A DNA stretch of 64,000 nt from Microbispora bryophytorum (GTDB lineage: Bacteria > Actinomycetota > Actinomycetes > Streptosporangiales > Streptosporangiaceae): NCBI RefSeq assembly GCF_006874465.1, contig NZ_VIRL01000013.1, positions 124,001 through 188,000 on the forward strand, given 5' to 3'. The first letter of the stretch is position 1, and each line of letters opens with the position of its first letter. Under the pieces are notes generated by a model that was given only the letters and a program-made list of their open reading frames with translations, was not told where the DNA came from and did not search any database. The position numbers and the translations under genes were made by a program. Shown one piece after another: positions 6,593-31,778 of this stretch.

Positions 6593-9508
6593 TCAGCTGC
6601 AGCCGCTGGTGCTGCCGCAGCCCTCGCAGACGTAGCAGCTGCCGGCCGGTCGCATCTTCGTGCCGCAGGTCATGCACAGCGGCGCGTCCGCCGTACGGCC
6701 CTGGTGGCTCTCCAGCGAGGCGCCGACCCGGCGCGGCTCCGGCACCGCCACCGGCACGACCTGCCCGGCGGACGGCCCCTCGGCGGGCTTGGCCTCGACC
6801 GGCGCCGGCTGCGCCTTCTCGACGGGCACGGCCTTCCCGTTCTCGATTGGCGCGGACTGCGCCAGGGCGGCGGTGTCCAGGTCCTGGAGCGCGGCCGGGT
6901 CCTCGCCGCGCTGCTGCGCGGCCCGCTCGGAGGCGGAGAAGATGCCCAGAGCCGCCCGGTCCTCGTACGGCAGGTGGTCGAGCGCGAGCCGCCGGAAGAT
7001 GTAGTCCATTACCGACTGCGCCATCCGGACGTCGGGGTCGTCGGTCATGCCCGCTGGCTCGAAGCGCATGTTGACGAACTTCTGCACGTAGGTGTCCAGC
7101 GGCACGCCGTACTGGAGACCGATCGAGATCGCCACAGAGAAGGCGTCCATCACGCCCGCGAGCGTGCTGCCCTGCTTGGACATCTTGAGGAAGACCTCGC
7201 CCAGGCCGTCGTCAGGATAGGACGAGGCGGTCATGTAGCCCTTGGCGCCGCCCACGGTGAAGCGGGTGGTGGTGCTCGGCCGCTGGTTCGGCATCCGCCG
7301 CCTGGTCGGCCGCGCGACCTCCACGACCTGGACGATCGGCTCCTTCTCGGCGGACGCCTCGGCAGGGGCCTCCTCGGAGGCCTTCTTCGCGATCGACAGC
7401 GGCTGACCGACCTTGCAGTTGTCGCGGTAGACGGCCAGGGCCTTGAGGCCGAGCTTCCAGCCCTCCAGGTAGACCTGCTCGATGTCGTCCACCGTGGCCG
7501 ACTCCGGCAGGTTCACGGTCTTGGAGATGGCGCCGGACAGGAACGGCTGGACGGCCGCCATCATCCGGACGTGGCCCATCGATGCGATGGCCCGCTCGCC
7601 CATCGCGCAGTCGAACACCTCGTAGTGCTCCGGCCGCAGGCCGGGGGCGTCCACGACGTGACCGTGCTCGGCGATGTACTCGACGATGGCCTCGACCTGC
7701 TCCTCAAGGTAGCCGAGCTGACGCAGCGCCCGCGGGATCGTCTGGTTGACGATCTGCATCGAGCCGCCGCCGACGAGCTTCTTGAACTTCACCAGCGCCA
7801 GGTCGGGCTCGATGCCGGTGGTGTCGCAGTCCATCATCAGGCCGATGGTGCCGGTCGGGGCCAGCAGCGACGCCTGGGCGTTGCGGTAGCCGTTCCGCTC
7901 GCCGAGCTTGAGGCACTCCTGCCACTGCCGGGTGGCCTCGGCGTGCAGGTCCTTGTCCATGGCGTCGAGCGTGCGCAGGTCGTCGTTGGCCGCGGCGTGC
8001 TTGCGCATGACCCGCTTGTGCGGCTCGGCGTTGCGCTGGTAGCCGTCGTACGGGCCGACGATCCCGGCGATCTCGGCCGAGCGGCGGTAGGACACGGCGG
8101 TCATCAGCGAGGTGATCCCGGCCGCGATGGCCCGGCCGCCGTCGGAGTCGTACGCGTGGCCGGTCGCCATCAGCAGCGCGCCCAGGTTCGCGTAGCCGAT
8201 GCCGAGCTGGCGGTACGCCCGGGTGGTCTCGGCGATCTTCTCCGTCGGGAAGTCGGCGAAGGTGATCGAGATGTCCATCGCGGTGATGATCAGCTCGGTG
8301 ATCTTCACGAAGGCGCCGACGTCGAAGGAGTCGTCGTCACGCAGGAACTTCAGCAGGTTGATCGACGCGAGGTTGCACGAGGAGTTGTCCAGGTGGACGT
8401 ACTCCGAGCAGGGGTTGCTGGCCGTGATGCGCCCGGTCTCCGGGCAGGTGTGCCAGTCGTTGATCGTGTCGTCGTACTGCAGGCCGGGGTCGGCGCACTC
8501 CCAGGCGGCCTGGGCCATCTTGCGGAACAGCGACCGCGCCTCGACCTCCTCGATGACCTCTCCGGTGAGCCGGGCCCGCAGGCCGAAGCTCCCGCCGGCC
8601 TCGACGGCGCGCATGAACTCGTCGGAGACCCGCACCGAGTTGTTGGCGTTCTGGTACTGGACGGACACGATGTCCTTGCCGCCGAGGTCCATGTCGAACC
8701 CGGCGTCGCGCAGCGCGCGGACCTTGTCCTCCTCGCGCGCCTTGGTCTCGATGAACTCCTCGATGTCGGGGTGGTCCACGTCGAGGACGACCATCTTGGC
8801 CGCCCTGCGGGTGGCGCCGCCCGACTTGATGGTGCCGGCGGAGGCGTCGGCGCCGCGCATGAAGGAGACCGGGCCGCTGGCCGTGCCCCCGCTGGACAGC
8901 AGCTCCTTGGACGAACGGATGCGGGAGAGGTTGACCCCCGAGCCCGAGCCGCCCTTGAAGATCACGCCCTCTTCCTTGTACCAGTCGAGGATCGACTCCA
9001 TCGTGTCGTCCACGGCCAGGATGAAGCACGCGCTCACCTGCTGGGGGGAGAGGGTGCCGACGTTGAACCACACCGGGGAGTTGAAGCTGAAGATCTGGTG
9101 GATCAGCGCGTGCTTGAGCTCGTGGTCGAAGATCTCCGCGTCCTCGTCGGAGGCGAAGTAGCCGTTCTCGACGCCGGTCCTGGTGTAGACGCCCACGACC
9201 CGGTCGACGAGCTGCTTGAGGCTCGACTCGCGCTGGGGGGTGCCCACCGCCCCGCGGAAGTACTTGGTGGTGACGATGTTGGCCGCGTTGACCGACCAGG
9301 AGTCCGGGAACTCCACGCCGTGCTGCTCGAAGTTGACCGAGCCGTCCCGCCAGTTCGTCATCACGACGTCGCGCCGCTCCCAGCGGACCTCGTCGTACGG
9401 GTGAACACCCGGGGTGGTGAAGATGCGCTTCATCTTCAGGCCCTTGCGCGGGCGCTTGCCCGGCCGACCCCCCGCACCCGATACGGTGCCGCTCACGGTC
9501 TCCGTCAT
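6593..9508 (-). CDS. nrdJ: Vitamin B12-dependent ribonucleotide reductase (class II)
   Basis: A 971-residue class II reductase, which reduces ribonucleotides to deoxyribonucleotides using adenosylcobalamin and works with or without oxygen. Visible landmarks are VSACFILAVDDTM, the SGSGVNLSRIRS block, NPCSEYVHLDNSSCNLASINL around the radical/catalytic cysteine, and a C-terminal cysteine cluster (CMTCG..........CEGCGSTSGCS) that re-reduces the active site. The start at 9508 follows GGGAGGGGGAAGTC. Length matches streptomycete NrdJ. It lies 120 bases downstream of nrdR on the same strand, the standard nrdRJ operon order, and the paired NrdR boxes ahead of nrdR should control both. Confidence 0.97.
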   Translation of the reverse strand: MTETVSGTVSGAGGRPGKRPRKGLKMKRIFTTPGVHPYDEVRWERRDVVMTNWRDGSVNFEQHGVEFPDSWSVNAANIVTTKYFRGAVGTPQRESSLKQLVDRVVGVYTRTGVENGYFASDEDAEIFDHELKHALIHQIFSFNSPVWFNVGTLSPQQVSACFILAVDDTMESILDWYKEEGVIFKGGSGSGVNLSRIRSSKELLSSGGTASGPVSFMRGADASAGTIKSGGATRRAAKMVVLDVDHPDIEEFIETKAREEDKVRALRDAGFDMDLGGKDIVSVQYQNANNSVRVSDEFMRAVEAGGSFGLRARLTGEVIEEVEARSLFRKMAQAAWECADPGLQYDDTINDWHTCPETGRITASNPCSEYVHLDNSSCNLASINLLKFLRDDDSFDVGAFVKITELIITAMDISITFADFPTEKIAETTRAYRQLGIGYANLGALLMATGHAYDSDGGRAIAAGITSLMTAVSYRRSAEIAGIVGPYDGYQRNAEPHKRVMRKHAAANDDLRTLDAMDKDLHAEATRQWQECLKLGERNGYRNAQASLLAPTGTIGLMMDCDTTGIEPDLALVKFKKLVGGGSMQIVNQTIPRALRQLGYLEEQVEAIVEYIAEHGHVVDAPGLRPEHYEVFDCAMGERAIASMGHVRMMAAVQPFLSGAISKTVNLPESATVDDIEQVYLEGWKLGLKALAVYRDNCKVGQPLSIAKKASEEAPAEASAEKEPIVQVVEVARPTRRRMPNQRPSTTTRFTVGGAKGYMTASSYPDDGLGEVFLKMSKQGSTLAGVMDAFSVAISIGLQYGVPLDTYVQKFVNMRFEPAGMTDDPDVRMAQSVMDYIFRRLALDHLPYEDRAALGIFSASERAAQQRGEDPAALQDLDTAALAQSAPIENGKAVPVEKAQPAPVEAKPAEGPSAGQVVPVAVPEPRRVGASLESHQGRTADAPLCMTCGTKMRPAGSCYVCEGCGSTSGCS

Positions 9509-22042: not shown

Positions 22043-23326
22043 TCAGAACTCGCAGGTCATGTGCTTGATGCCGTTGATGAAGCTGGACAGCAGGCGCTCC
22101 GGCTCGCCCGCCTCGATCTGCGGGACCCGCCGCAGCAGCTCGCGGAACATCGCGGTGATCTCGCGGCGGGCCAGGTGGGCGCCGAGGCAGAAGTGGGGAC
22201 CTGGGCCGCCGAAGCCGACGTGCGGGTTGGGGTCGCGCCGGATGTCGAAGCGCAGCGGGTCGTCGAACACCCGCTCGTCGCGGTTGGCCGCCCAGTAGTA
22301 CAGCAGGACCTTCTCGCCCTTGCGGTAGAGGTTGCCGTTCATCTCGTGGTCCCGGGTGACCTTGCGGCGCATGTAGTTGACCGGCGCGGCCAGCCGGACG
22401 ATCTCCTCGATCGCGCGCGGCGCCCGGCCCTCGAAGTCCTCCAGCCACAGCCGCCGCTGCTCCGGGTTGACCGTGAGCAGCCGCATGCCGTGCGAGATGG
22501 CGTTGCGGGTGGTCTCGTTACCGGCCACGACGAGCAGGATGAAGAACGAGCCGAGCTCCTGGGCCGTCAGCCGCTCCCCGTCGATGTTGGCGTTGACGAG
22601 GGACGAGGTGAGGTCATCGGTGGGCGTCTCCATCCGCAGCGCGGCCAGGTCCTGGACGAGCTGCTGCAGCTCCATCCCCGCGGTGAGCAGCGCGTGGGCG
22701 ATGTCCGCACGCTCGCTCACGTATTCGGGGTCGGTGGCGCCGAGGACGATGTTCGAGCGGTCGAAGACGAACCGGTAGTCCTTCTCCGGGATGCCCATCA
22801 TGTCGCAGATGATCTTCAAGGGCAGCCTGGCGGCCACCTCGGTGACGAAGTCGCAGCCGGGGCCGGTCTCCAGCAGCTCGTCCACGATGCGCGAGGCCGC
22901 GGCGTCCACGTCGGACTCGAACTGCTTGATCATCTTCGGGGTGAAGGCGCGCGAGACGATCCGCCGCAGGCGCGCGTGCCGCGGGTCGTCCATGTTGATC
23001 ATTGAGCCGAAGTATTCGGCGAACTCCGCCGGCAGGTCCGGGATGTTGGTCGCCCCGCCGTCGCCCGAGCAGAAAACCTCGGGATTGCGGCTGGCCTCCA
23101 GGATGTCGGCGTGCCGGACCAGCGCGTGGTAGCCCGGCCCGGTGACGCCGCCCAGGCTGAACTCGGGCTCCGGGAAGAAGGCCGGCTTGTCCAGGTCGCG
23201 CAGCAGCCGGAAGGCGTGCTCCCGCTCCTCGTCCGGGCGGCCCCAGAAGTCCCAGTCGTTCAGGTCGATGTCCGCCGCCGAGGTGATGGCCGTGCGCTTC
23301 CCGGGGTCCGTCGGCTGTGTCGTCAT
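22043..23326 (-). CDS. Cytochrome P450 (CYP124/CYP125/CYP142-like)
   Basis: A 427-residue soluble bacterial P450. The I-helix oxygen motif is VVAGNETTRN, the K-helix ExxR is EEIVR, and the heme thiolate is Cys380 in FGGPGPHFCLGAHLAR. The conserved GSMINMDDPRHARLRRIVSRAFTPK block and NYMRRKVTRD place it with mycobacterial CYP124/CYP125/CYP142-type enzymes, which oxidise the terminal carbon of methyl-branched lipids or sterol side chains. Exact substrate unknown. A close paralogue sits at 24991-26259. Its upstream region contains AACC-N6-GGTT (23356-23369). It needs a ferredoxin partner, which is not in this window. Confidence 0.92.
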   Translation of the reverse strand: MTTQPTDPGKRTAITSAADIDLNDWDFWGRPDEEREHAFRLLRDLDKPAFFPEPEFSLGGVTGPGYHALVRHADILEASRNPEVFCSGDGGATNIPDLPAEFAEYFGSMINMDDPRHARLRRIVSRAFTPKMIKQFESDVDAAASRIVDELLETGPGCDFVTEVAARLPLKIICDMMGIPEKDYRFVFDRSNIVLGATDPEYVSERADIAHALLTAGMELQQLVQDLAALRMETPTDDLTSSLVNANIDGERLTAQELGSFFILLVVAGNETTRNAISHGMRLLTVNPEQRRLWLEDFEGRAPRAIEEIVRLAAPVNYMRRKVTRDHEMNGNLYRKGEKVLLYYWAANRDERVFDDPLRFDIRRDPNPHVGFGGPGPHFCLGAHLARREITAMFRELLRRVPQIEAGEPERLLSSFINGIKHMTCEF

Positions 23327-24990: not shown

Positions 24991-26259
24991 TCAGAAGCGG
25001 TAGCTCATGTGCTTGACGCCGTTGATGAAGTTGGACAGCAGGTAGGACGGCTCGCCCACGGAGCGGATGGCGGGCATCCGGTCGAACAGCTCCCGGAATA
25101 TCACGGTGATCTCCCGGCGGGCGAGGTGGGCGCCCAGGCAGTAGTGCGGGCCGGGGCCGCCGAAGCCGACGTGGGGGTTGGGACTGCGGGTGATGTCGAA
25201 GACGTCGGGATCGCGGAAGACCGCCTCGTCCCGATTCGCCGAGTTGTAGAACAGCAGGACCTTGTCGCCCGCGTGGTAGTCGTGGCCGTTCATCGTGTGG
25301 GCCCGTGTCACGGTGCGCCGGAACTGGATGACGGGGCTGGAGTAGCGGACGATCTCCTCCACGGCGCCCGCGATGCGCCCGTCGAAGTCCTCCAGGAGCA
25401 GCGCGCGCTGGCCGGGGTGGTCGGTGAGCAGTTTGAGCCCGTGGGCGATGGCGTTGCGGGTCGTCTCGCTGCCCGCGACGACCAGCAGAATGAAGAACGA
25501 GCCGAGCTCCTGGGCGGTCAGGCGTTCTTCGCCGTGCACGAGCATGCTGGTCAGGTCGCCGGTGGGCCGCCGGCGGCGCTCCGCGGCCAGGCGACGGGCC
25601 AGCCCGTTCAGGTCGTGCCCGGCCCGCAGCAGCGCGACCAGGCCGCGGGCCGTCGTCCAGCGGCCGAATGAGGCGTCCGGCCGAAACGGGTCGACGACGA
25701 CGCCCGAATATTCGGAGTCGGCGTTGGCCAGGATCGTGTTCGTACGGCGGAGCACCCGGTCGTGATGTTCGGCCGGGATGCCCATCATGTCGCAGATCAC
25801 CCGTACGGGTAATCGGGCGGCGATCTGGGGCACGAAGTCGCCGGGCCCCTCCCGCACGGCCCCGTCGACGATCTCCCGGGCGGCCCGGCCCAGGTCCTCC
25901 TCCATCTTGGCCAGGATGCGCGGGGTGAACGCCCGCGAGACGATCCGCCGCAGCCGGGCGTGCCGGGGATCGTCCATGTTGATCATGGAACCGAAGTAGA
26001 CGGCCAGCCAGCGCGGCATGTCGGGGATGCTGTTTGCCGTCGGCTCGCTGCTGAAGACGGCGGGGTCGCGGCTCGCCTCGGTCACGTCGGCGTGCCGTAC
26101 GAGCGCGTAGTAGCCGGGGCCGTGGCCGATGAAGGGGATCTTGTTCTCGCGGAAGAAGACGGGCTGGTCGAGCGCACGCAGGCGCCGGAACGCCTCGTGC
26201 CGCTCGGCCCGGGGCAGCCCCCAGAACGGGATGTGGGACAGGTCGGCAGCCGTGTCCAT
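24991..26259 (-). CDS. Cytochrome P450, paralogue of the upstream one
   Basis: A 422-residue P450 with VVAGSETTRN in the I-helix, EEIVR, and Cys374 in GGPGPHYCLGAHLAR. It shares long identical blocks with the P450 at 22043-23326 (GSMINMDDPRHARLRRIVSRAFTP; LTAQELGSFFILLVVAG), so the two arose by duplication. It carries an unusual insertion, YSGVVVDPFRPDASFGRWTTARG, in the F-G region that shapes the substrate pocket, so the two probably differ in substrate. I chose the ATG at 26259. It is divergent from the acyl-CoA synthetase with a palindromic site in the 149-base gap. Confidence 0.92.
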   Translation of the reverse strand: MDTAADLSHIPFWGLPRAERHEAFRRLRALDQPVFFRENKIPFIGHGPGYYALVRHADVTEASRDPAVFSSEPTANSIPDMPRWLAVYFGSMINMDDPRHARLRRIVSRAFTPRILAKMEEDLGRAAREIVDGAVREGPGDFVPQIAARLPVRVICDMMGIPAEHHDRVLRRTNTILANADSEYSGVVVDPFRPDASFGRWTTARGLVALLRAGHDLNGLARRLAAERRRRPTGDLTSMLVHGEERLTAQELGSFFILLVVAGSETTRNAIAHGLKLLTDHPGQRALLLEDFDGRIAGAVEEIVRYSSPVIQFRRTVTRAHTMNGHDYHAGDKVLLFYNSANRDEAVFRDPDVFDITRSPNPHVGFGGPGPHYCLGAHLARREITVIFRELFDRMPAIRSVGEPSYLLSNFINGVKHMSYRF

Positions 26260-26358
26260 GCCGACCACTCTCGTGCGTGGGCACGGCATCGTCAAGGGCC
26301 GGGAACGCCCGTGCAAACGGACCCTGAAAATCCGCCCCCAGAGCCGTTACGCTGAGGT

Positions 26359-26408: not shown

Positions 26409-27935
26409 ATGCTCAACCTGGCCGTCGTGCTGGAAGACAGCGCACGGGAGAAGCCCGACGCCACCGCGGTCGTCTTCGGCGACATGCGCCTGCCGTACTC
26501 ACTCGTGGACACCATCGCCGGCCAGGTCGCCAACCTGCTGGTCTCGCGCGGCATCGGCAGGGGCGACAAGGTGGCGCTGGCCTGCCCCAACCTGCCGTAC
26601 TTCCCGTTCGTCTACTACGGCATCCTCAAGACGGGCGCGACCGTCGTCCCGCTGAACGTGCTGCTGCAGGCCAGGGAGATCGCCTATCACCTGGACGACT
26701 CCGACGCCAAGGCATTCTTCTGCTTCGAGGGCTCACCGGAGCTGCCGCTGGGCGAGCGGGGCCGTGCCGGCTTCGCCGACACGGAGGGCGTCGAGCACTT
26801 CTTCGTGCTGCCGGCCACGCCGTTCGCCACCGAGTCCGAGCTCGGCGAGACGCTGTGGGCGGCCCTCGACGGGATGTCCGGCGAGTTCGAGACCGTGCAG
26901 ACCTCCGCCGACGACACGGCGGTGATCCTCTACACCAGCGGCACCACCGGCCAGCCGAAGGGCGCCGAGCTCACCCACCAGAACATGGTCATGAACGCCA
27001 TCGTCAACGACGAGATGTTCCCCCGGCAGCCGGAGGACACCTACCTCGTCGCGCTGCCGCTGTTCCACTCCTTCGGCCAGACGGTGCTGATGAACGCCGG
27101 GTTCCGGCGCGGCGGCACGCTCGTGCTGCTGCCCCGCTTCGAGCCGGTCGCGGCCCTCACGCTGATGAAGCGCGAGAAGGTCACGCTGTTCGCGGGAGTG
27201 CCGACGATGTACTGGGCCATGCTCGCCGCCGTGCACGCCGGCGCGGCCGAGGTGCCGCCCTCGCTGATCACCGCCGCCTCCGGCGGCTCGGCACTGCCGG
27301 TCGAGGTCCTGAAGGACTTCCGCGCGACGTTCGGCGTGGCCGTCCTGGAGGGATACGGCCTGTCGGAGACGTCGCCGGTGGCCTCGTTCAACCAGCCGGG
27401 CAGGCCCGCGAAGGCCGGCTCGATCGGCACGCCGATCTGGGGCGTGGAGATGAAGCTGGTCGACGCCGACTGGAACACGCCCGACGACATCGGCGAGATC
27501 GCCGTCCGCGGCCACAACATCATGAAGGGCTACTACAACAGGCCCGAGGCGACGGCGCAGGTCATGAAGGACGGCTGGTTCCGCACCGGTGACGTGGCCC
27601 GGCGCGACGAGGACGGCTACTACTTCATCGTCGACCGGGCCAAGGACATGATCATCCGGGGCGGCTTCAACGTGTACCCACGGGAGATCGAGGAGGTCCT
27701 CATGACCCACCCCGCGGTCTCGCTCGCCGCGGTCGTCGGGGTGCCCCACGACTCCCACGGCGAGGAGGTCAAGGCGTACGTCATCCGCAAGCCCGGCGCC
27801 ACGACCACCGAGGAGGAGCTGGTGGCGTGGTGCCGGGAGACGATGGCGGCCTACAAGTACCCGCGGATCGTGGAGTTCCGCGAGTCCCTGCCGATGACCG
27901 CCACCGGAAAGATCCTCAAGCGCGAGCTGCGGTAG
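26409..27935 (+). CDS. Long-chain fatty acyl-CoA synthetase (FadD type)
   Basis: A 508-residue adenylate-forming enzyme that activates a carboxylic acid with ATP and joins it to CoA. The phosphate loop is YTSGTTGQPKGAELTH, the adenine motif is EGYGLSETSPV, the hinge region is GWFRTGDVARRDEDGYYFIVDR, and the C-terminal catalytic lysine is in TATGKILKR. I chose the ATG at 26409, preceded by AAAAGGGAG; a frame open from 26373 would start inside the palindrome. Placed with two P450s, the branched-acid pair and a racemase, the substrate is likely a long or branched fatty acid. It ends 14 bases from the converging methyltransferase. Confidence 0.9.
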   Translation: MLNLAVVLEDSAREKPDATAVVFGDMRLPYSLVDTIAGQVANLLVSRGIGRGDKVALACPNLPYFPFVYYGILKTGATVVPLNVLLQAREIAYHLDDSDAKAFFCFEGSPELPLGERGRAGFADTEGVEHFFVLPATPFATESELGETLWAALDGMSGEFETVQTSADDTAVILYTSGTTGQPKGAELTHQNMVMNAIVNDEMFPRQPEDTYLVALPLFHSFGQTVLMNAGFRRGGTLVLLPRFEPVAALTLMKREKVTLFAGVPTMYWAMLAAVHAGAAEVPPSLITAASGGSALPVEVLKDFRATFGVAVLEGYGLSETSPVASFNQPGRPAKAGSIGTPIWGVEMKLVDADWNTPDDIGEIAVRGHNIMKGYYNRPEATAQVMKDGWFRTGDVARRDEDGYYFIVDRAKDMIIRGGFNVYPREIEEVLMTHPAVSLAAVVGVPHDSHGEEVKAYVIRKPGATTTEEELVAWCRETMAAYKYPRIVEFRESLPMTATGKILKRELR

Positions 27936-27949
27936 GGAACCGCGGACCC

Positions 27950-29206
27950 CTACGGCCAGTCGAGGGACGGGCGCAACGCGACGTGCGACTGTCCCTCGTC
28001 GAGCCGGACGCCGAGCACCTGGTGCAGCTGCACCTTGTTGCGCTCGAACCCGACGACGCAGCCGGCCATGTAGAGCCGCCAGACCCGGGCGGTGCCCTGG
28101 CCGACCTCCTCGACCGCCTCCTCCCAGTGGGCGTCGAGGTTCTTGCACCACTCGCGCAGCGTCAGCGCGTAGTGCTCACGCAGGTTCTCCTCGTGGCGGA
28201 CCTCGAAACCGGTGTCCTCCATCTGGCGGATCAGGTAGCCCACCGACTCCAGCTCGCCGTCCGGGAAGACGTAGCGGTTGATGAAGCCGCCCTTGTTGAT
28301 GGTCTTCTCGGTGCTGGTCGGGCGCGTGATGCAGTGGTTGAGCAGGCGCCCGCCCGGCTTGAGCTTGCCGTACAGGAAGGAGAAGTACGACGGCAGGTTG
28401 TCCTTGCCGATGTGCTCGGTGAGGCCGATCGAGCTGACCCGGTCGAAACCGGTTTCGGGGACGTCACGGTAATCCATGTAACGGACCTCGGCGAGCTCCG
28501 ACAGCCCGGCCTCCGCGATGGCCTTCTGCGCCCATTCGGCCTGCTGGCGCGACAGCGTGACGCCGAGGCCCTTCACGCCGTATTCCCTGGCCGCGTGCAT
28601 GACCATGCCGCCCCAGCCGCAGCCGACGTCGAGCAGCCGCATCCCGGGCTTGAGGTCGAGCTTCTTGGCGACCAGGTCGAACTTCGCGTACTGCGCCTCC
28701 TCCAGCGTCGCGTCCGGCCCGGGGAACACCGCGCAGGTGTACGCCATGGAGGGACCGAGCACCCACTCGTAGAAGCGGTTGGACACGTCGTAGTGATGGT
28801 GGATCACTTCGGCGTCACGCTGCTTGGCATGCCGGCTGCCGAGCTTCGCCAGCGTGCTCTGCCGCGCCTCCTGTGGCGGCGGCTGGACGCGCATCAGCAG
28901 CGGCTTGATCCCGAGCGCGCGGATCGCCGCGACCTTCTCGCCCAGCGCCAGGTCGTTGATCGTCAACGACCACATCCGGTCCAGCAGGCTGTACATGTCC
29001 CCGTGCACATCGAGGTGCCCGGAAATGTACGCGCGGGCGAGGCCGAGCTCTCCCGGCGCCTGCGCGAGATAGGCCACCGCGGCCGGCGACTTCACCTCAA
29101 TGCGGAGGTCCGCCCCCGAGGACCCGGCCTTGCTGCCGTCGTAGGCGACGAACTCGACGCCCGCGTCAGGGCCGACGATCTTCTCGAAGATCTTCGCAAG
29201 AGTCAT
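27950..29206 (-). CDS. tmsB: Fatty-acid C10 methyltransferase (cyclopropane synthase family), tuberculostearic acid synthesis
   Basis: A 418-residue SAM-dependent methyltransferase of the cyclopropane-fatty-acid synthase family. The SAM site is LLDVGCGWGGMVMHAA, IGLTEHIGKDN supplies the usual catalytic Glu-His region, and YTCAVF/HHHYDVSN.FY are family hallmarks. Its partner immediately upstream is an FAD oxidoreductase 25 bases away on the same strand. That arrangement is the tmsA-tmsB (bfaA-bfaB) pair: TmsB adds a methylene at C10 of oleoyl chains and TmsA reduces it to 10-methylstearate. A plain cyclopropane synthase is the alternative, but the pairing argues against it. The start at 29206 follows GGGAGAGGT. 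Confidence 0.85.
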   Translation of the reverse strand: MTLAKIFEKIVGPDAGVEFVAYDGSKAGSSGADLRIEVKSPAAVAYLAQAPGELGLARAYISGHLDVHGDMYSLLDRMWSLTINDLALGEKVAAIRALGIKPLLMRVQPPPQEARQSTLAKLGSRHAKQRDAEVIHHHYDVSNRFYEWVLGPSMAYTCAVFPGPDATLEEAQYAKFDLVAKKLDLKPGMRLLDVGCGWGGMVMHAAREYGVKGLGVTLSRQQAEWAQKAIAEAGLSELAEVRYMDYRDVPETGFDRVSSIGLTEHIGKDNLPSYFSFLYGKLKPGGRLLNHCITRPTSTEKTINKGGFINRYVFPDGELESVGYLIRQMEDTGFEVRHEENLREHYALTLREWCKNLDAHWEEAVEEVGQGTARVWRLYMAGCVVGFERNKVQLHQVLGVRLDEGQSHVALRPSLDWP

Positions 29207-29231
29207 TGCACCTCTCCCGACGTAACGACGC

Positions 29232-30602
29232 CTACCGGCCTCTGACGCACTTGTCATAGAGGTCCAGCAGCCGGCCACCCGGGTCGTAGGCGCTTTTGAC
29301 CGGCCAGTAGGCGTCTCCGTTGTAGAGCCGCCAGAACTCCTCCCGCTCATAGAAAGAGGTGGAGTACAGCGACTTGTGGCCGTCGAGCGAATGCACTGCC
29401 CGCTCGATCAACCGGTTGTAGTACCCGTCGTACTGGCCGCGCGGCAGCGGAACCATGCCCCAGAAACCGAAGTTCACGTACAGGCGGCCGGGCTCCAGCG
29501 GGTAGAGCGCCCACTGACCGGTCGCCTTGAGCGGGCACATCCACACCGGGGCCATTCCGACCTTGTCGTGGAAGACCTCCAGGAACTCGGCGCCGCGTTC
29601 GATCGGCACCTCGACATCCTGGATGACCGACTCGTGCACGGGGTTGTTCCGCCAGCGGTCGATCCGGGCGGTCACGCCGTACCTCTGATCGAGGCCGACG
29701 AGCTTGCGATAAACGTCCGACCGCAGATAGCGCCGCGGGAGGAGCGAACGGACCAGCGGCTGCTGCACGCCGAAGGCGCGCGAACACCAGAACCAGTCGG
29801 TGTCCCAGCGCCACAGGTAGTCGCGCACGGTCAGCCAGTCGCGGACGCGGCTGCGGATCGACTGGTAGTAGATCCGCATGCCGGTGTAGTCGGACGTGTA
29901 GGGCGCCCGGTCGGAGAACGAGCCGACCGTGACGTACAGCTCTCCGGGACCGAAGAACGTGCCGTCGACGAAGTCCACCTTCTCGCCGTCGTGCTCGCGA
30001 CTCTCGCAGATCTCCTGCATGGCGAGCATGCACTTGTCGGCGTCGCTGAAGCGGATGTGCGTCAGCTTGACGTACGGCTTCACCCGGGCCAGCTTGATGC
30101 GGATACGCAGGGCGTAGCCGAGCGTGCCGTAGGAGTTGGGGAACGCGTGGAACAGCTCCGCGTGCTCGTTGTCGGGCCGGGCCACCACGATCCGCCCGTC
30201 GCCGGTGAGGATCTCCAGTTCCTCGACCGACTCGTGCGGCAGCCCGTCCTTGAAGCTCGTCGACTCGATGCCGAGGCCCGTGACCGCTCCGCCCAGGGTG
30301 ATCGTCTTGAGCTGCGGCACGACATACGGCATGAGCCCGTACGGCAACGTGGCGTCCACCAGGTTCTCGTACGTCGTCATGCCCTGGACCTCGGCCGTCA
30401 TGGTCACCGGGTCCACGTGGATGACCTGGTCCAGATCGCGGGCGGACAGCGCCGCCGTCTTGACCGGCGCGCGGAAGCGGAACAGGTTCGTCGTCGCCTT
30501 GGCCAGCCGGGGAGCGGAGTCCTCGGGAATGGCCGCGTAGGAGTCCCTGATCTGCTCGACGGCCTTGCTATGGGCGGTCATACTGGCCGTGCGCTCTGGC
30601 AT
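29232..30602 (-). CDS. tmsA: FAD-binding oxidoreductase, 10-methylene fatty acid reductase type
   Basis: A 456-residue flavoprotein with a PCMH-type FAD domain (VDPVTMTAEVQGMTTYENLVDATLPYG; TLGGAVTGLGIESTSFKDGLPHESV). The C-terminal half resembles DHCR24-like/Rv0447c-linked reductases (HDKVGMAPVWMCPL; LYVNFGFWG). Next to a cyclopropane-synthase-type methyltransferase it fits TmsA/BfaA, which reduces the 10-methylene lipid with NADPH to give 10-methyl fatty acids. It is the first gene of the two-gene operon. The ATG at 30602 has GGTGG upstream. The 186 bases before it show no clear promoter hexamers. Confidence 0.83.
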   Translation of the reverse strand: MPERTASMTAHSKAVEQIRDSYAAIPEDSAPRLAKATTNLFRFRAPVKTAALSARDLDQVIHVDPVTMTAEVQGMTTYENLVDATLPYGLMPYVVPQLKTITLGGAVTGLGIESTSFKDGLPHESVEELEILTGDGRIVVARPDNEHAELFHAFPNSYGTLGYALRIRIKLARVKPYVKLTHIRFSDADKCMLAMQEICESREHDGEKVDFVDGTFFGPGELYVTVGSFSDRAPYTSDYTGMRIYYQSIRSRVRDWLTVRDYLWRWDTDWFWCSRAFGVQQPLVRSLLPRRYLRSDVYRKLVGLDQRYGVTARIDRWRNNPVHESVIQDVEVPIERGAEFLEVFHDKVGMAPVWMCPLKATGQWALYPLEPGRLYVNFGFWGMVPLPRGQYDGYYNRLIERAVHSLDGHKSLYSTSFYEREEFWRLYNGDAYWPVKSAYDPGGRLLDLYDKCVRGR

Positions 30603-30788
30603 GACACCACCCCCATGGATCGTAGAGATCGCTTTCTTGGCACGCTATCCCCGGAGGGGAGCGCAGACCAGAGTAGACACGTTACGCCCGCGAAAACTAT
30701 CCAGTGTTCTCACGGCGGCCCACCGGCGTAGATCGTACCCTGCGAGTTTTCATCGCCTCCGCCGCCCCTGGTGTAACTGTGGAAACCG

Positions 30789-31778
30789 TCAGGACCTGGG
30801 CGGACGTCGGCGGACGAGCGGGTCGGCGCCGTTGACCACGTTGACCACGGGGCGGCCCTCCATCGCCGCGGCGAGGTTGTCCAGCACGCATCGGATCAGC
30901 CGGGCCGTCGCCTCGGGCGTGACCCCGGCCGCGTGCGGCGACAGCAGGACCCCCGGGCAGGAGCGCAGCGGGTCGTCCGGCGCCGGGGGCTCGCTGTCGT
31001 ACACGTCCAGCGCCGCGCCGGCGAGACGGCCGGACTCCAGCGCGGCCAGCAGCGCCACCTGGTCGACCACCCCGCCCCGGGCCGCGTTGACCAGCACCGA
31101 CCCCGTGGGCATGCGGGCGAACCTCTCCGCGCCGATCAGCCCGCGGGTCTCCGGCGCGAGCGGCACGGCCAGGACGAGCACGTCGCTTCCCGTCACCAGC
31201 GCGTCGATGTCCTGGTAGGCCGCGCCGTACGACTCGAGCCTGGGCGTGCGCGACCAGTAGGAGACGCGGCAGCCGAGCGCGCCGAACAGGCGGGCGCAGG
31301 CCGCACCGATCGGCCCGAAGCCGATCACTCCCACACGGCATCCGGCGAGCTCGCGGCGCTGGTAGGCGAACTGCGGCCACTCCCCCGCCCGCATGTCCCT
31401 GTCGCCGTCCGCGAGGTGGCGCAGCATGGCCAGCGCGGCGGCCAGGCACCATTCGGCCACCGCGGCGGCGTTCACCCCCGCGGTGTTGGCGAGGGGCACC
31501 CCGGCGCGGGCCAGCGCCTCCGCGTCGTGCCCGTCCACGCCGACCGCCGGCTGCTGCACGAACGCCAGGCGCGGCGCCAGCCGTACGGCCTCCGCGTCGA
31601 GGGCCAGGGCCCCGCTCCAGTCGCCGACGACGATCTCGGCCTCGGGCAGCGCGTCCAGCAGCCCCGCGCGGTCGCGCCGGGCGGGGACGCGCACCTCGGC
31701 GCGGCCGTCGAGGTCGGCTAACAGGCCGCGCACCGCGTCCTCCGGGAGCGGTGGCAGCGCGAGAACATTCCACGTCAC
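30789..31778 (-). CDS. D-2-hydroxyacid dehydrogenase
   Basis: A 329-residue NAD-dependent dehydrogenase. The nucleotide fold is VGVIGFGPIGAACARLFGALGCRV, and the catalytic set is seen as Arg in NAARGGVVD, Glu in DVYDSEPP and His in LSPHAAGVT. Such enzymes reduce 2-oxo acids to D-2-hydroxy acids. The substrate is unknown; a branched 2-oxo acid would suit the neighbourhood. The start is a GTG at 31778, 74 bases from the divergent racemase, with a KstR-like palindrome in between. Confidence 0.9.
   Translation of the reverse strand: MTWNVLALPPLPEDAVRGLLADLDGRAEVRVPARRDRAGLLDALPEAEIVVGDWSGALALDAEAVRLAPRLAFVQQPAVGVDGHDAEALARAGVPLANTAGVNAAAVAEWCLAAALAMLRHLADGDRDMRAGEWPQFAYQRRELAGCRVGVIGFGPIGAACARLFGALGCRVSYWSRTPRLESYGAAYQDIDALVTGSDVLVLAVPLAPETRGLIGAERFARMPTGSVLVNAARGGVVDQVALLAALESGRLAGAALDVYDSEPPAPDDPLRSCPGVLLSPHAAGVTPEATARLIRCVLDNLAAAMEGRPVVNVVNGADPLVRRRPPRS

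Follow-up and report, generated by a model that had tools for sequence, protein, structure and literature searches.

In the genome of Microbispora bryophytorum, a gene for a methyltransferase of the cyclopropane synthase family directly follows one for an FAD-binding oxidoreductase. This raises the question of whether the methyltransferase closes cyclopropane rings beside an unrelated neighbour, or whether the two enzymes together make methyl-branched fatty acids. The genes are found on the minus strand of the window, the whole stretch of 64,000 nucleotides that was analysed, which is part of contig 41 of a 7.85-Mb genome. The original prediction read them as a 10-methyl fatty acid pair, tmsA-tmsB, and this reading is supported by orthology, by the phylogenetic tree and by the consistent linkage of the two genes. 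While the pair was correctly recognised, its current name is bfaA-bfaB, the authors of the tms names having renamed the genes (PMC7791843). By analogy with characterised orthologues, the locus is almost certainly a two-gene operon that would make 10-methyl chains from the cis-9 acyl chains of phospholipids by way of a 10-methylene intermediate, the conversion of C17:1 cis-9 to 10-methylheptadecanoic acid probably being the main route. This pathway is already characterised and is standard in the bacterial family of the strain; it is not novel.

The first gene, bfaA (tmsA; 29232..30602, minus strand), encodes 456 amino acids, and the second, bfaB (tmsB; 27950..29206, minus strand), encodes 418. 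Both frames are open and complete. The spacer between them (29207..29231, minus strand) is 25 bases long, and its sequence displays a ribosome-binding-like GGGAGAGG just 5' of the bfaB ATG. The original description of a methyltransferase directly after an FAD oxidoreductase, with a 25-base gap, is correct in both coordinates and gap. A second candidate ATG of bfaA is residue 8, from 30581, and for bfaB the list of open reading frames offers a longer start at 29350. The start at 29206 is preferred because relatives align from residue 1 there, and because of the ribosome-binding-like sequence before this ATG. The two genes are probably co-transcribed in the Microbispora window. A simple consensus scan of 27800-31000 gave no sigma-70-like promoter, and the two terminator-like sites in the same region are on the opposite strand and near the number expected from shuffled sequence. 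A hydroxyacid dehydrogenase gene (30789-31778) is located upstream on the same strand, 186 bases away, and has a match in 22 of 80 loci. The next gene downstream of bfaB, transcribed convergently, encodes an acyl-CoA synthetase with a match in 29 of 80; both counts are lowered by loci shorter than the full flank. A larger operon was considered and rejected, neither neighbour being counted in on account of distance, orientation and the few matching loci.

The bfaB product is a predicted SAM-dependent acyl methyltransferase, an assignment based on its translation, identity to relatives, place in the tree and match to PF02353 (CMAS, E 3.9e-101). None of the NCBIfam matches is a model naming the bfaA-bfaB pair, and all of them are under their cut-offs. 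The scores against the Cfa models are 250 bits versus a cut-off of 400 (NF008686) and 331 versus 650 (NF040703), so that neither model would call the protein a Cfa. The bfaA product is predicted to be an FAD-dependent, probably NADPH-dependent, 10-methylene acyl reductase with a VAO/DprE1-like fold, based on its translation, identity to relatives, a match to PF01565 (FAD_binding_4, E 3.5e-12, 46.7 bits versus a cut-off of 26.4) and an AlphaFold model with a mean pLDDT of 84.1. The best solved structures among the 50 matches listed for this model are DprE1, cytokinin oxidase and galactonolactone dehydrogenase, with Z of 26.1-28.9 over 310-378 residues. The PF01565 domain and the modelled VAO fold agree in assigning BfaA to the VAO-type FAD_binding_4 proteins. 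A shared VAO fold would by itself be no proof of the reaction of BfaA, and it is from the published orthologues that a role as reductase is proposed. The alignment for the structure model (A1) holds 31 of 55 located relatives; a second one (A2), which served as an alignment only, holds 29 of 54, with L082 left out. This locus, from Kutzneria, has a stop inside the bfaB frame, which was counted as a gap in the methyltransferase tree described below.

Compared with the proteins of G095, a genome taken as Thermomonospora curvata, the window BfaA displays 65% identity over 446 residues and BfaB 68%. G095 is found beside T. catenispora in both the BfaA tree and the methyltransferase tree. The identity of BfaB to an unlinked actinobacterial methyltransferase is 48%, to a mycolate-type enzyme 35%, and to E. 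coli Cfa 33%. Among the best 80 of 593 relatives, a set from which records very close to the window may be missing, the closest named one is that of Microbispora siamensis, with 96% identity in both proteins. In the genome itself a single CMAS match exceeds the family cut-off, and four matches exceed that of the desaturase family PF00487. The genome also encodes two paralogues of BfaA, 27-29% identical over part of the protein only. In a tree of 29 relatives and these two paralogues, the window BfaA groups with the other BfaA proteins, and the paralogues are very remote.

The pairing of the FAD gene and the methyltransferase gene is not due to chance. For the FAD protein, 593 relatives were confirmed and the best 80 kept as named loci. 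In every one of these 80 a methyltransferase gene follows directly on the same strand; in L072 and L083 it is truncated at the end of the contig. A sample of 148 genomes from the class was searched at a match level of E 1e-50 or better. The FAD protein was found in 75 and some methyltransferase in 112 of these. The methyltransferase gene is adjacent and on the same strand in 74 of the 75 genomes with BfaA, always with the FAD gene first and with 3-369 nt between the match ends. The 75th genome, G368, has an adjacent partial methyltransferase match (47% over 170 residues) that ends at the contig end. The other 66 methyltransferase matches of the sample are at most 54% identical to that of the window, bar one of 70% in G363, which begins at a contig edge in a genome with no BfaA match at 1e-50. 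As read from the table for the order, the BfaA match reaches at least E 1e-60 in 293 of 297 genomes. Among the remaining four, the methyltransferase search at 1e-30 gave nothing in three and only a match of 36% in one, so that in the order both genes are absent together. In a sample of the phylum, nine of 149 genomes encode BfaA at 1e-40; two of these belong to other classes, and both have the methyltransferase gene adjoining.

The methyltransferase tree comprises 94 sequences, of which 46 are BfaA-linked (one of them from Variovorax), 41 are unlinked and seven are reference cyclopropane or mycolate enzymes. They were drawn from 21 of the 80 named loci, from the class sample (20 linked and 40 of the 66 unlinked), from G095, the window and plasmid loci (three linked and one unlinked), and from the seven references. 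The window methyltransferase is found inside a group of 45 linked actinobacterial sequences with a support of 99/98, together with the BfaB of G095 and apart from all 41 unlinked and seven reference sequences. It again groups with BfaB at 99/98 in a subset tree. For this tree, as for the topology test, both the linked and the unlinked group were thinned to every third row, and L118, L155, L158 and L159 were left out. The unlinked sequences form no single sister group. One of them, L092 from genome G403, joins the base of the BfaB group with modest support (95/62), and the edge of this group is therefore not sharp. A closer relationship to true cyclopropane synthases, which would speak against the original prediction, is not what this phylogeny displays, and the identities point the same way.

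Several orthologous systems have been characterised. When the M. chlorophenolicum pair, which resembles that of the window and has the same gene order, was co-expressed in E. coli, 10-methylstearic acid was formed via a methylenated intermediate, while the methyltransferase alone gave a different product (Machida et al. 2017, PMC5660069). Seven candidate methyltransferases are described for M. chlorophenolicum (PMC5660069), as against the single CMAS match in the window genome. In M. smegmatis, where an FAD gene lies upstream of the methyltransferase gene cfa in the same order, tuberculostearic acid needs cfa, as deduced from loss and complementation of this gene (PMC10127668). The bfaA-bfaB genes of Thermomonospora curvata and Thermobifida fusca are like those of the window in gene order, short spacing and protein families, with 65-68% identity to the T. 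curvata-like G095, but the main chain expected in Microbispora is probably C17 and not C18. In T. fusca, Tfu_2161 is BfaA and Tfu_2160 is BfaB, and 10-methyl C16-C18 acids are present (PMC9198275). For bfaAB, a 10-methylene intermediate, a need for NADPH and a substrate range of C14-C20 have been reported (PMC7791843). Eleven bfaAB operons, in the choice of which conservation of the bicarbonate site was used, have been cloned in E. coli; four were active, those of T. curvata and T. fusca best, and seven gave no product (Blitzblau et al. 2021, PMC7791843). Since seven of eleven gave no product, orthology is no guarantee of measurable activity. The third gene of some species, bfaC (PMC7791843), does not adjoin the window pair, where the acyl-CoA synthetase gene is found instead. 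The tmpB-tmpA genes of M. hydrocarbonoclasticus and Desulfobacteraceae also include a methyltransferase of the same family that gives a 10-methylene chain, but as that paper describes them they are set apart by another gene order and a non-homologous reductase (PMC7791843).

In the mechanism proposed for the window pair, BfaB would transfer a methyl group from S-adenosylmethionine to C10 of a cis-9 unsaturated acyl chain in a membrane phospholipid. The steps past methyl transfer would be a hydride shift and then a proton loss that gives the methylene. The cation formed on BfaB would thus rearrange and drop a proton, leaving a 10-methylene chain and no cyclopropane. BfaA, as an FAD protein charged by NADPH, would then reduce the exo-methylene to a saturated 10-methyl chain. 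In Microbispora, C17:1 cis-9 would probably be the main substrate, giving mainly 10-methylheptadecanoic acid, in addition to 10-methyl C16:0 and little tuberculostearic acid. For the window strain, both the activity of the pair and its products are what we infer. In four Microbispora strains 10-methyl C17:0 constitutes 13.3-18.0% and 10-methyl C16:0 2.2-6.2% of the fatty acids, while tuberculostearic acid is at most 1.4% and was not detected in two of them (PMC8049491). One of the four belongs to Microbispora amethystogenes (PMC8049491); in this species, under a different strain number, the pair is also among the named loci, with 93% identity. At 13-18% in these strains, 10-methyl C17:0 is probably the main product instead of tuberculostearic acid. 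Of the original wording, "tuberculostearic-type" synthesis, the 10-methyl pathway thus stands, while the acid it is named after would be a minor product.

Other readings of the locus have to be weighed against this one. In one of them BfaB would simply make cyclopropane fatty acids, and the FAD gene next to it would be unrelated. This is suggested by Pfam and NCBIfam, which name the protein by the cyclopropane synthase family, and by the retention of all five bicarbonate-site residues of E. coli Cfa. In E. coli K-12, cfa has no adjoining FAD gene. The position among BfaA-linked enzymes, the consistent linkage to BfaA and the identities, 68% to the BfaB of G095 but only 33% to Cfa, all argue against such an enzyme, and the Microbispora fatty acid table, as shown, contains no cyclopropane acid (PMC8049491). 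This reading is very improbable, and is ruled out here by tree position and identities. The FAD protein could alternatively desaturate the methylated chain instead of reducing it, as in the furan fatty acid pathway, where UfaM is likewise a SAM-dependent acyl methyltransferase with a redox partner (PMC7380195). That partner, UfaD, apparently belongs among the phytoene dehydrogenases and desaturases (PMC7380195), unlike the PF01565 protein with a VAO fold encoded here, and the BfaA of T. curvata reduces a methylene group with NADPH (PMC7791843). A furan pathway was rejected on this difference in family between the FAD proteins, and its probability is close to nil.

A 10-methyl pathway might also be directed mainly at a different class of lipids, or at chains such as unusual branched ones, and not at ordinary phospholipid chains. 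The four Microbispora strains do contain mostly iso-branched and odd chains, with more 10-methyl C17:0 than tuberculostearic acid, but the 10-methyl C17:0 fits the cis-9 C17:1 of the same table (PMC8049491). Special chemistry is not needed either, as the T. curvata enzymes take chains of C14-C20 (PMC7791843), and a dedicated lipid pool is highly unlikely. The preferred reading remains the bfaA-bfaB pathway acting on phospholipid cis-9 chains.

BfaB has five residues that align with the presumed bicarbonate site of the E. coli enzyme Cfa. In Cfa this site presumably includes Cys139 and Glu239, the equivalents of Cys158 and Glu264 in BfaB, and all five (Cys158, Glu264, His291, Ile293 and Tyr346) are kept in 45 of 45 linked sequences. 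Other columns differ between the 45 linked and 40 unlinked sequences compared, from which the Variovorax sequence and the very long-branched unlinked L118 were left out. Thr157 and Leu262 are present in all 45 linked sequences, where all 40 unlinked ones have Ser and Met, respectively. Thr263 is found in 98% of the linked versus Gly, Ala, Ser or Val in the unlinked, and Trp225, farther from the catalytic residues in sequence, in 45 of 45 versus a mixture. Except for Trp225, the separating columns adjoin the putative catalytic residues in sequence. The codon of Cys158, located from the alignment and the gene coordinates at 28733..28735 (minus strand), follows the BfaB-specific Thr157. The codons of the equally specific Leu262-Thr263-Glu264-His265 are at 28412..28423 (minus strand) by alignment, with coordinates checked against the sequence. 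As strings, L-T-E-H occurs in 79 of 80 named linked sequences, the exception being L072 at a contig end, and Y-T-C in 80 of 80, while neither is found in any of the 41 unlinked. E. coli Cfa has M-F-E-H and Y-S-C at these places.

It may be asked whether Thr157, Trp225 and Leu262-Thr263 decide between cyclopropane closure and rearrangement to a methylene. This is a tentative and rather doubtful suggestion, because residues specific to a clade are accounted for equally well by common ancestry and by function. Thr and Trp are also found at positions 157 and 225 in a Burkholderia gene annotated as cfa, and these two residues alone are thus not diagnostic outside the actinobacteria. No such claim was found in the literature that was searched, only in part with this question in view, which is weak evidence of absence. 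If the suggestion were true, the sequence of many enzymes annotated as cyclopropane synthases could tell which product they make, and a few changes could switch it. As BfaA-linked and unlinked enzymes separate cleanly, a handful of residues can be put forward for testing what makes a methyl branch and not a cyclopropane ring.

A different arrangement is found on a 2.48-Mb replicon of Variovorax paradoxus VAI-C. It encodes a BfaA homologue of 50% identity. Here the methyltransferase gene comes first and its end overlaps the gene of the BfaA homologue by 17 bases, so that the order is opposite to that in actinobacteria. This BfaA falls inside the actinobacterial BfaA set, with Catellatospora at 95/79 and on a long branch, while the methyltransferase is outside the BfaB group; a tree with all linked methyltransferases as one clade is rejected (p-AU 6e-6). 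It looks as if Variovorax obtained its BfaA from an actinobacterium and combined it with a different methyltransferase, although the long branches limit this claim. The methyltransferase has equivalents of Thr157 and Trp225, but T-L-E-H instead of L-T-E-H before and at the catalytic Glu. Convergence on the BfaB signature was considered and is weakened by this Thr-Leu order and by the Burkholderia gene annotated cfa, which has both Thr157 and Trp225. V. boronicumulans has this methyltransferase at 86.5% identity, with no FAD gene in the stretch examined, and the plasmid that carries it gave no BfaA match.

In Actinomadura graeca 10-methyl C18:0 (10.5%) exceeds 10-methyl C17:0 (1.2%) (PMC8631618). 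Which products predominate may just depend on the chains that the host provides. The pair described here is the likely genetic basis of the 10-methyl C17:0 that serves as a chemical marker in Microbispora. As bfaA and bfaB are apparently kept or lost together, the presence of the gene pair may predict this marker.

Two cytochrome P450 genes are found in the window, at 22043-23326 and 24991-26316, both on the minus strand and past the acyl-CoA synthetase gene that lies downstream of bfaB. The surroundings of bfaAB contain a P450 match in 32 of the 80 named loci, which are the best 80 of 593 BfaA relatives; part of these matches lie on the opposite side of the pair and display an identity of only 35-38%.

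The bfaB frame of Kutzneria sp. 744 (7397-8632) contains one stop codon as sequenced. On contig C130 of genome G262 (99450-100814) the bfaB match is found in two pieces with 93 bases between them, and each piece was reported inside a 628-aa open frame. The 38-kb plasmid of Prescottella sp. R16 (NZ_CP130944.1) encodes bfaB, while bfaA is unannotated; the bfaA match consists of four BLAST pieces, and the gene may be broken. Both genes are flanked by duplicated TetR and Rieske genes, whose two copies are oppositely placed.

The gene order is reversed in Variovorax paradoxus VAI-C (CP063167.1, 3689-6263), where a Cfa-family methyltransferase gene comes first and overlaps the following gene, encoding the BfaA homologue, by 17 bases. 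The methyltransferase partnered with this homologue is an unrelated member of the Cfa family. In Variovorax sp. PDNC026 both genes are matched, and the two matches adjoin and keep this order, while in the stretch and plasmid examined of V. boronicumulans the methyltransferase match stands alone and no BfaA homologue was found.

Many actinobacteria of the class genomes (loci L092-L131) encode BfaB homologues at 38-50% identity without BfaA in the retrieved stretch. In the alignment, the bicarbonate-site histidine is replaced by glutamine in 19 of the 41 unlinked methyltransferases, and the isoleucine of this site by methionine in 18 of the 41.
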